A stretch of 51,606 nucleotides of DNA, taken from positions 1 through 51,606 of the forward strand of contig JANWVO010000020.1 in the NCBI GenBank assembly GCA_025056865.1. Direction: 5' to 3'. Positions 4,593 to 7,870 of the stretch are shown here, piece after piece. The stretch's first letter is position 1. Every line of letters begins with the position of its first letter. This stretch comes from Bryobacteraceae bacterium (lineage in GTDB: Bacteria; Acidobacteriota; Terriglobia; Bryobacterales; Bryobacteraceae). Made by a program: the position numbers and the translations under genes. Under the pieces are notes generated by a model, which was given only the letters and a program-made list of their open reading frames with translations, searched no databases and had not been told where the DNA came from.

Positions 4593-5288
4593 TTAACAGC
4601 CGTCAGCGACCTCGCCGAGGATCCGCTGCGCCGCCGCCCGCGGGTCGGTGGCGCGCGTGATTTCCCTGCCGATCACCAGATAGTCCGCTCCGGCGGCCAG
4701 CGCTTCGGCGGGTGTCGCGACCCGCTTCTGGTCGTGCGCGGCTGCGCCGGCGCTGCGTACGCCGGGCGTCACCAGCAGACGGCCGCCCCCCACCAGCGCG
4801 CGCAGGCGCGCCGCTTCCAGCGGCGAGCAGACGAAGCCATGCGTTCCGGCTTCCAGGCCCCGCCCGGCCAGCCACAGGACGTGCTCCGCAGGCGTCCGCC
4901 CGGCGATGCCGATGTCTTCCAGATCGCGCTGGTCAAAGCTGGTGAGCACGGTAACGGCCAGGATCTTCGTCTGCGAGCCTTCGACGCCCTCCACGGCCGC
5001 GCGGATCACCTGCGGCACGCAGTGCACCGTGAGGAGCGAGACGCCGAGATCCGCCGCCCGCGCCGCCGCGCGCCGGACGGTCTCTCCGATGTCGTACATT
5101 TTCAGGTCGAGGAACACCTGCTTGCCTGCGCCCACCAGCTCGCGCACGAGCGCCGGCCCTTCGGCAGTGAACAGCTCGAGCCCCACCTTGTAGAACGGAA
5201 TGAGCTCTCCGCACTGCTCCACCAGGCGCAGCGCGGAGGCGCGGTTTTCCACGTCGAGGGCGACGATGAGCGGGTTGCGCCTGTTCAT
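4593..5288 (-). CDS. pyrF: Orotidine 5'-phosphate decarboxylase
   Basis: PyrF converts OMP to UMP in the last step of de novo pyrimidine synthesis in the cytoplasm. The 231-residue length is normal. The sequence shows the substrate-binding LIVALDVEN near the N-terminus and the catalytic DxKxxD signature in FLDLKMYDIGETV, then VTVLTS and the phosphate-binding VTPGVR and YLVIGREIT near the C-terminus. Its ATG overlaps the selD stop codon as ATGA, so it is probably translated by coupling from the selD message. The pairing with selD has no obvious metabolic logic. Confidence 0.95.
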   Translation of the reverse strand: MNRRNPLIVALDVENRASALRLVEQCGELIPFYKVGLELFTAEGPALVRELVGAGKQVFLDLKMYDIGETVRRAAARAADLGVSLLTVHCVPQVIRAAVEGVEGSQTKILAVTVLTSFDQRDLEDIGIAGRTPAEHVLWLAGRGLEAGTHGFVCSPLEAARLRALVGGGRLLVTPGVRSAGAAAHDQKRVATPAEALAAGADYLVIGREITRATDPRAAAQRILGEVADGC

Positions 5289-6265
5289 ACGACGATCAGC
5301 GGCTTCTCCCCCCGTTCCAGCACCCGCCCGATGATGCGGCCGGAGGCACGCTCCGGCGGCATGGAAAGCAGCAGCCCGCCCGAGGTTTGCGGATCATACA
5401 GCAGCGCTTCGGTTTCCGGCGGGAGCTCGCGGCGGAACTCCACCGCGCAGGAGACGAAGTCACGGTTGTTGTTCAGGCCCCCGGGGATGGCGCCCTGGCG
5501 CGCGTAATCCGGCGCGCCGGGCAGCCACTCCAGCCGCTCTGCCTCGATCAGAAGCGTGACGCCCGATGCCAGCGCCATCTCGCGCGCATGGCCCAGCAGG
5601 CCGAAGCCGGTGATGTCCGTGCAGCCGTGCACTTCGCCTTCGAAGCGGTTCAGACGGCACATCGAGAGGATGGCCGCTTCGACGTGCGCCGGATCGGCAA
5701 TGCCCCGCTTGAGCGCCGTGCCGATCACCCCGGTGCCGAGTGGCTTGGTGAGCACGAGCACGTCGCCGGGACGCGCGCCGGCGTTGGTCCAGATCCTTTC
5801 CGGGTGCACCATGCCCGTCACCGCATAGCCGAACTTCATCTCCTCGTCGTTCACCGAGTGGCCGCCCAGGATCACGCAGCCGGCTTCGATCATCGTGTCT
5901 GCGCCGCCGCGGAGGATCTGCTCGAGATCCTCAAGGTCGCCCCGGGCGGGATAGCAGAGGATGGACAGGGCAGTGAGCGGGCGCCCGCCCATCGAGTAGA
6001 CGTCGGAGAGCGCGTTGGCGGCGGCGATGCGGCCGAACGTGTAGGGATCGTCCACGATGGGCGTGAAGAAGTCCACGGTCTGCACGAGGGCGCACTCCGG
6101 GCTCAGGCGGTAGACGCCTGCGTCGTCGCAGGTATCGAAACCGACCAGAACGTTGGGATCCTTCAGGCGCGGAATGCGCGGCAGAACCGTGTCCAAAACC
6201 TTTGGACTCAGCTTGGACGCTCAACCCGCGGCCTTGACGTGGGCGGTGAGCTTCTTCAATGACAC
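5285..6265 (-). CDS. selD: Selenide, water dikinase, probable selenocysteine-containing form
   Basis: SelD makes selenophosphate from selenide and ATP, the selenium donor for selenocysteine and 2-selenouridine. A plain open frame begins at a TTG at 6196, but homology continues upstream through an in-frame TGA at 6223-6221. Reading that codon as selenocysteine (U) gives MSLKKLTAHVKAAG-U-ASKLSPKVLDTVL, which aligns with the E. coli GCGCKISPKVLETIL active-site segment: U15 matches Cys17 and Lys18 matches Lys20. The enzyme is then 326 residues, close to the family norm. The proposed start is the GTG at 6265, with AGGAGG at 6283-6278. Downstream, DDAGVYRL, TVDFFTPIVDDPYTFGRIAA and the glycine-rich C-terminus are typical. 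The stop overlaps pyrF (ATGA). Confidence 0.88.
6191..6223 (-). promoter_or_regulatory. UGA(Sec) codon and SECIS-like hairpin in selD
   Basis: The UGA occupies 6223-6221 on the minus strand. Thirteen bases later a perfect 7-bp stem, GTCCAAA GGT TTTGGAC (6207-6191), exposes a GGU apical loop that begins 20 bases after the UGA. Bacterial SECIS elements lie just downstream of the UGA, usually with a spacing of roughly 16-37 bases to a small apical loop whose first bases include G. All three criteria fit. SelB binding is inferred. Confidence 0.75.
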
Positions 6266-6304
6266 CGCTTACACCTGCCTCCTATCTGCTGTATGATGGC
6301 GCGC

Positions 6305-7870
6305 ATGAACCGCCGCACGTTCGTTTCCGCAACGGCTGCTGCCCTGCTGGCGCCGCGTCCGGGCCGCGCGGCCGAAGGCTCGGCCACGGTGCTCCTGAAA
6401 GAACAGATTGGCACAATCAGCCCGCTCGTGCATGGCCACTTCGTCGAGCACCTCGGCGGCGTGGTTTATGACGGCATCTGGGTGGGCGAGAAGTCGAAGA
6501 TCCCGAACATCGCCGGCATCCGCAAGGCGCTCATCGACGACCTGAAGCGGATCCGCGCGCCGCTGTTCCGCTGGCCCGGCGGCTGCTTCGCCGACAGCTA
6601 CGACTGGCGGGACGGCGTCGGCCCGCGCGAGAAGCGCCCGAAGCGGGTCAATTTCTGGGCCGAGTCGGGAATGCTGGCCAAGCTGAAGGACTCTCCCGCC
6701 AAGTACGAGCCCAATGAATTCGGCACCAACGAGTTCATGCGCTTCGTGCAGGAGGTGGGCGCGAAGCCTTACCTTGCCGCCAACCTGCGCGGCATGACCG
6801 CGCGCGAGTTCAACGACTGGGTGGATTACTGCAACGCCCCGCTCGGCGCGACCACCTGGAGCCAGGTGCGCGGCACTCCTCCCTTCAACGTCGAGTTCTG
6901 GGGCATCGGCAACGAGAGCTGGGGATGCGGCGGCGATTTCCGCCCGGAGGAATACGCCGTCGAATTCCGGCGTTTCACGTCGTGGGTGCCCGGCTTCGGC
7001 GTGCCGCTGAAGTTCATTCCGGCAGGGCCCAACGGCGGCGATCTCGGCTGGACGCGGGGCTTCTTCGAAGCGCTCGTCCGCAAGAGCCCGGGCCTGTTGC
7101 GCCGCGTCTGGGGCTGGGCGCTGCATTACTACTGCGGCACGGCCGGCGGACCGGTGGAGTTCAACACCGACGAATACTACGAGCTGCTCGGCCGCGCCGT
7201 GCGCATGGAGCAGCTCATCCGCGACCACTGGGCCATCATGGGCGAATACGACCGCGAGCACCGCGTCAAGTTCGCCATTGACGAGTGGGGCGCGTGGCAC
7301 AAGGCGGGCAGCGAGGTGGCGCCGCACCACCTGTTCGGGCAGATCGGCACCATGCGCGACGCCGTCATCGCCGGCCTCACGCTCGATATCTTCCACCGCC
7401 ACGCTGACAAGGTGGCGATGAGCTGCGTGGCGCAGCTCGTCAACTGCATCCACTCGCTGTTCATCGCGCATGAAGACAGGATGCTGCGCACGCCCAACTA
7501 CCATGTCTTCGACCTCTACAAGGACCACCAGAACGGCACAGCCGTGCGCACGGTCTTCGCGGCACCGGCCTCGCCGAAGGTGGCCCGTCTGGAGGGTTCG
7601 GCCTCGCTGCACGAGAAAGACCGCCGGCTGGTGCTCACCTGCACGCATGCCGATGCTGCCGAGCCGCTCGCCGTGGAGGTGCGCGTGGAGGGCGGAACTC
7701 CGCAGTCGGCGCGCGGCCAGGTGCTTGCGGGCAGGCCGCAGGACCACAACACATTCGCCGAGCCGGAACGCGTGAAGCCGCGCGAGCTGGCCGTCAGCGT
7801 GCGCAACGGACGTCTCGTTTTCGAGCTGCCGCCGTGCGCAGTCGCGGCGGTGACGGTGGAACTGGGCTGA
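6305..7870 (+). CDS. Secreted GH51-type alpha-L-arabinofuranosidase
   Basis: This protein should cleave terminal arabinofuranose from plant polysaccharide side chains. The (beta/alpha)8 catalytic domain shows FRWPGGCFADSYDWRDGVGP, then FWGIGNESWGCGG, whose Glu after Asn is the expected acid/base, and KFAIDEWGAWH, whose Glu is the expected nucleophile. A C-terminal beta domain follows from about residue 400. The start at 6305 gives MNRRTFVSATAAALLAP, a twin-arginine-type signal, so export in folded form is likely; an in-frame ATG at 6293 would add four residues. No Shine-Dalgarno is visible, but TATGAT lies seven bases before 6305. The gene is divergent from selD with only 39 bases between starts. 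Length 521 residues. Confidence 0.88.
   Translation: MNRRTFVSATAAALLAPRPGRAAEGSATVLLKEQIGTISPLVHGHFVEHLGGVVYDGIWVGEKSKIPNIAGIRKALIDDLKRIRAPLFRWPGGCFADSYDWRDGVGPREKRPKRVNFWAESGMLAKLKDSPAKYEPNEFGTNEFMRFVQEVGAKPYLAANLRGMTAREFNDWVDYCNAPLGATTWSQVRGTPPFNVEFWGIGNESWGCGGDFRPEEYAVEFRRFTSWVPGFGVPLKFIPAGPNGGDLGWTRGFFEALVRKSPGLLRRVWGWALHYYCGTAGGPVEFNTDEYYELLGRAVRMEQLIRDHWAIMGEYDREHRVKFAIDEWGAWHKAGSEVAPHHLFGQIGTMRDAVIAGLTLDIFHRHADKVAMSCVAQLVNCIHSLFIAHEDRMLRTPNYHVFDLYKDHQNGTAVRTVFAAPASPKVARLEGSASLHEKDRRLVLTCTHADAAEPLAVEVRVEGGTPQSARGQVLAGRPQDHNTFAEPERVKPRELAVSVRNGRLVFELPPCAVAAVTVELG

Follow-up and report, generated by a model that had tools for sequence, protein, structure and literature searches.

The selD gene located at positions 5285 to 6265 (minus strand) of the window, which here means the whole stretch of 51,606 nucleotides that was analysed, almost certainly encodes a selenophosphate synthetase that contains selenocysteine (Sec), specified by an in-frame TGA codon. 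The original prediction of a probable selenoprotein with a recoded UGA has been supported by the position of this codon, its recurrence in relatives, the presence of the machinery genes in the same genome and a conserved hairpin after the UGA. The gene is very probably a real case of Sec-SelD, but of a kind already known: PMC1794560, PMC4561486 and PMC13188914 between them describe Sec-SelD as well as Sec-peroxiredoxins and bacterial SECIS elements.

Reading frame of selD and the TGA codon

Translation of the minus strand from 6268 to 5285 with TGA read as Sec has revealed a single open frame with one internal TGA. The predicted product of 326 amino acids, with Sec at residue 15, extends from a GTG start codon (6265-6263) to a TGA stop codon (5287-5285) and belongs to the SelD family, matching the TIGR00476 profile with 359.5 bits (cut-off 125). 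Mechanical ORF calling yielded a protein of 303 amino acids beginning at the TTG at 6196, which is the loss of 23 N-terminal residues and the TTG start foreseen for a standard gene call, and the reading with Sec thus mends a gene that plain ORF finding shortens. The GTG at 6265 was chosen as start codon because GTG or ATG followed by TCN recurs at equal distance in the rows of the same genus and in several others. An AGGAGG motif at 6278 to 6283 (minus strand), 12 nucleotides upstream of this GTG, is from its sequence a possible ribosome-binding site. At the other end of the gene, the stop codon is overlapped by ATGA with pyrF, coding for orotidine 5'-phosphate decarboxylase (4593 to 5288, minus strand; Pfam OMPdecase, 191.5 bits).

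The in-frame TGA (6221 to 6223, minus strand) is predicted to be a Sec codon at the catalytic Cys position from the translation, the alignment with a SelD of known structure and the family loci. An alignment of the N-terminus, proposed as a check of the original prediction, was carried out with the SelD of PDB 3u0o, which we take to be the E. coli protein. The TGA paired with the first Cys of the GAGCGCK motif, and the conserved Lys three residues further on and then the family sequence SPKVLDTVL were found after it, all as anticipated; in the usual numbering of SelD the catalytic Cys and the conserved Lys are presumably Cys17 and Lys20. In 30 family loci in which the codon at this site was inspected, it was TGA in 25, TGC in four and TGT in one, at an identical place throughout. 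In the codons upstream of the UGA the amino acids are retained among the family genes with synonymous changes, and therefore this stretch of selD is translated.

These observations leave little room for two other explanations. A sequencing or assembly error for TGC or TGT, or a decayed selD, is highly improbable: a Cys codon, one base away from TGA, does occur at the site in 5 of the 30 inspected loci, but the same TGA is present in the other 25, which come from separate assemblies, the rest of the frame is open with that single TGA, and a hairpin is conserved along with it. A true stop at the UGA, with selD starting at the TTG at 6196, is exactly what the mechanical ORF call yields; it has scarcely any probability either, as protein-level conservation with synonymous change covers the codons before the UGA, the shortened product would be a SelD without its catalytic residue, lacking both the Cys/Sec and the Lys conserved in the family, and in the Cys-type relatives the frame runs on through this position.

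The hairpin downstream of the UGA codon

The UGA is followed by a hairpin of 7 bp (6191 to 6207, minus strand; GUCCAAA-GGU-UUUGGAC) with the loop GGU at 6200-6198, which is predicted to be the upper stem-loop of a bacterial SECIS on the basis of folding, pair counts and synonymous conservation. A lower helix possibly prolonging it (6185 to 6213, minus strand) was obtained by folding and is absent from the consensus fold of 25 rows. A 7-bp hairpin with GGU loop had been placed 20 bases after the UGA; this distance is right for the loop, which starts 20 nucleotides past the UGA, but not for the stem, which starts at 13. The folding proposed as a check gave the hairpin, with a stability that is modest by itself (z -1.54; 15 of 200 shuffled sequences were equally stable), and stems of 7 bp or more also occurred within the allowed range after 67 of the 1091 TGAs in the window. 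The hairpin alone is therefore weak evidence, and it is the comparison with relatives that makes the case strong.

Synonymous codon identity, averaged over pairs of the 25 UGA-type genes, was 0.902 for codons +5 to +10, which cover the hairpin, whereas the 243 scored columns averaged 0.513; these codons ranked first among 186 six-codon windows, and when the genus of the window was thinned to one row, they still ranked first of 154. The same six-codon window in five Cys-type genes gave 0.406 and ranked 139 of 231. The selective constraint on the hairpin is thus tied to the UGA (rank 1/186 versus 139/231), which is the behaviour expected of a bacterial SECIS. The recurrence of the TGA codon and the synonymous-site conservation of the hairpin among relatives are far beyond chance. 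Stem cells were paired in 95.7% of cases in the UGA rows (23 distinct) versus 54.3% in the Cys rows. Both sides of the stem have changed in three cells of the UGA rows, but covariation would be insufficient by itself, since partners shifted by -1 (67.1% paired) reached a covariation score of 0.104, higher than the 0.088 of the true register.

The window hairpin lies within the limits that PMC13188914 gives for bacterial SECIS elements, with a loop of 3 nucleotides beginning with G, a stem of 7 bp, 20 nucleotides between UGA and loop and an energy below -7.5 kcal/mol. Our own version of these limits was also passed by 305 of the 482 window TGAs with 40 or more open codons downstream, and the published limits were discarded as a detector, being not discriminating in this GC-rich DNA. 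Of the aligned rows, 50 of the 51 with Sec passed them, as did 2 of the 5 with Cys; row L095 misses the energy limit, and in row L024 the sole passing hairpin is not the homologous one. By plain stem count, 7 bp or more were present in 45 of the 51 Sec rows, and 6 or more in none of the 5 Cys rows. For gauging the requirements of bacterial SECIS elements, these close relatives, with selD of UGA type or Cys type and the hairpin retained or lost, constitute a ready set. The sole Rfam match on positions 5000-6600 at E values up to 5 was ClpQY_promoter; at 15.2 bits it fell short of the gathering score (42) and was taken as chance.

Selenocysteine machinery and other predicted selenoproteins

The genome to which the window belongs, as contig C47, comprises 4,183,825 bases in 61 contigs, with a listed completeness of 100% and contamination of 1.24%. 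Among named records, its closest counterparts were metagenome-assembled genomes of acidobacteria; the best, labelled Candidatus Solibacter usitatus, reached 77% identity in its best segment, and several others were labelled Bryobacterales, which points to an acidobacterium of this order. Genes for selenocysteine decoding had been expected elsewhere in it, and profile searches found selB (352.5 bits, cut-off 242.25) and selA (494.2 bits, cut-off 267.9), together with a single tRNA-Sec (72.6 bits, gathering score 47) to which ARAGORN assigned the anticodon TCA. A genome so equipped, with selA, selB and tRNA-Sec(TCA), is expected to decode UGA as selenocysteine. Thus neither an absence of selB or tRNA-Sec nor a TGA error was encountered, the machinery being present and the TGA recurring at the same codon in relatives. 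Two lower matches in this genome above the Rfam cut-off for tRNA-Sec were rejected, as both were tRNA-Ser; in a further set of 12 loci from the tRNA-Sec search, all seven that were put through ARAGORN were also tRNA-Ser.

A search for further selenoproteins in this genome covered the formate dehydrogenase-like, AhpC-TSA and AhpD/CMD families. Two of the 22 AhpC-TSA matches contained one TGA, at the peroxidatic Cys in both cases, and are predicted selenoproteins. The first peroxiredoxin (L206:490-1020, contig C2, plus strand) reads AFTGG-U-TKE, aligned to AFTGIC of Rv2238c (PDB 5id2), and the second (L211:918-1358, contig C27, minus strand) reads DDSPG-U-RSQ, aligned to NTPGC of PDB 5enu. From the single sequence of each gene, a hairpin could be folded past the UGA. 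No stop was found in the 11 formate dehydrogenase-like matches, the best of which reads NPRLCMAS, with Cys, and no TGA in the three AhpD/CMD matches. The gene ybbB, indicative of the selenouridine trait and a further user of SelD, gave no TIGR03167 match in this genome at E values up to 0.001. SelD as the sole selenoprotein, suggested by the stop-free formate dehydrogenase-like matches and the missing ybbB, was dropped in view of the two TGA peroxiredoxins; these make it probable that SelD is not alone, and that it supplies selenophosphate for itself and at least two peroxiredoxins. A full Sec system is thereby placed in this genome, with selA, selB, tRNA-Sec, selD and two predicted Sec-peroxiredoxins.

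Readthrough of the UGA with insertion of a residue other than Sec, by a near-cognate or suppressor tRNA, has also been considered, as the inserted residue is not identifiable by computation. It is very unlikely given that selB, selA and tRNA-Sec are present in the genome, that the constraint on the hairpin is missing where the codon is Cys, and that two further genes carry UGA at redox Cys sites. For insertion of Sec, the genes, the codon position, the conserved hairpin and the machinery genes were observed here, and the subsequent steps, namely SelB binding, Sec insertion and the enzyme activity of SelD, would follow by analogy with known biochemistry. During translation, SelB with GTP and Sec-tRNA(Sec) would bind the hairpin that starts 13 nucleotides past the UGA of the selD mRNA and would deliver Sec at that codon. 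The SelD of 326 amino acids would then convert selenide and ATP into selenophosphate, which SelA would use for Sec-tRNA(Sec), serving SelD and at least two predicted Sec-peroxiredoxins. Sec would thus be required for making its own selenium donor, since SelD itself would need Sec. Both SelB/SECIS decoding and supply by SelD and SelA are presented as the standard bacterial pathway in the portion of PMC13188914 that deals with them.

Sec-type and Cys-type selD in relatives and in other acidobacterial families

The window's family was represented by 37 genomes (G000-G036): SelD with one TGA was found in 27, a SelD match without stop in five (G006, G012, G018, G024 and G034), and weak or no matches in five (G007, G015, G020, G025 and G028). 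Inspection of the codon covered all of the 27 TGA-type genomes except G011 and G013, hence 25. A selB gene above the cut-off was present in 24 of the 27 genomes with TGA-SelD and in 5/5 with Cys-SelD, and tRNA-Sec was detected in 23/27 and 5/5, respectively. The TGA-SelD genomes without selB above the cut-off (G010, G016, with a partial match, and G022) and those in which tRNA-Sec was not found (G010, G014, G021 and G029) are all many-contig drafts; G010, which is 80% complete, is the only one of the 27 without both. None of SelD, selB and tRNA-Sec was found in G028 (99% complete), a pattern that fits loss of the trait. Two other genomes (G015 and G025, drafts of 360 and 480 contigs) have selB above the cut-off and tRNA-Sec, with weak SelD matches at most.

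In the phylum sample of 297 genomes, SelD was found in 172 at E values up to 1e-60. TGA-type SelD is the commoner form, as 114 of the 150 acidobacterial matches listed have one TGA and 36 have none; in the part of PMC4561486 used here, Sec is reported in 19% of the detected prokaryotic SelD, invariably at the same position. The codon was inspected in 26 phylum loci, the remaining 3 of 29 (L100, L105 and L110) being unmatched by the N-terminal pattern. In a quick tree of 56 SelD rows, the five Cys rows sit among Sec rows with four changes by parsimony, of which the starred branches force just one. Two tRNA-Sec matches above the cut-off were located about 3.6 kb apart in another genome (G060:C2:1112064-1112158 and 1115713-1115807).

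The position of the hairpin was compared among families. Its loop lies 19-20 nucleotides past the UGA in 24 of the 25 Sec rows of the window's family and at 20 nucleotides in the four rows of family f34. In family f8 it lies at 20 nucleotides in four of six rows; the other two score better with a hairpin at 27 and still contain the same 17-base hairpin sequence. Among selD hairpins within the limits, the best one in each of the 11 rows of family f27 (L093, L094, L096-L099, L103, L104 and L106-L108) places its loop 33 nucleotides past the UGA. Of 199 codon windows in f27, those that begin at codons -1 and +9 come first and second for synonymous conservation, and codons +5 and +6 vary; since the top window covers the UGA itself, the f27 position is a lead and no proof. 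According to these data, SECIS hairpins may change place within selD and degenerate once the codon has become Cys. We tentatively propose that selD of Acidobacteriota may form a natural series in which the SECIS for one Sec codon has been rebuilt at different places, at 19-20 nucleotides in the window's family and f34 and at 33 in f27, where the constraint would have moved to codons +9 to +14, and in which the hairpin decays where Sec is replaced by Cys although selB and tRNA-Sec are kept. In the six f8 rows (L084-L087, L089 and L090), synonymous constraint is not confined to the hairpin and reaches much further downstream, at least as far as codon +17.

Compared with known systems, the window selD resembles Sec-containing bacterial SelD (TIGR00476) in profile match, UGA position, Lys, hairpin and Sec machinery, and nothing essential differs. 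Its hairpin is like bacterial SECIS elements in loop, stem, spacing and energy, whereas the selD of f27 differs in having the hairpin 33 nucleotides past the UGA, a distance in another acidobacterial family that is possibly the less ordinary finding. Cys-type SelD, in single or long frames, shares the SelD domain, but the window carries a short gene of the TGA type. Stop-free frames of 749-832 amino acids were found for 17 SelD matches of order f3, and NADH dehydrogenase-like SelD fusions are described in the corresponding section of PMC4561486. In the literature collection that was searched, one off-topic paper came up for selenocysteine in Bryobacter and none for selenoproteins in Solibacter usitatus. 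As far as its tables show, PMC1794560 lists 38 Sec-SelD, 12 Sec-peroxiredoxins and three Sec-to-Cys changes in SelD (Table 1), and three selenoprotein families with four selenoproteins for Acidobacteria (Table 2); one acidobacterium with three known selenoprotein genes appears in the text of PMC12013277 used here. Among the matches listed in the present analysis, seven genomes (G073, G076, G129, G145, G150, G317 and G335) have two SelD matches, one TGA-type and one stop-free, and three (G086, G173 and G309) have two TGA-type matches each.
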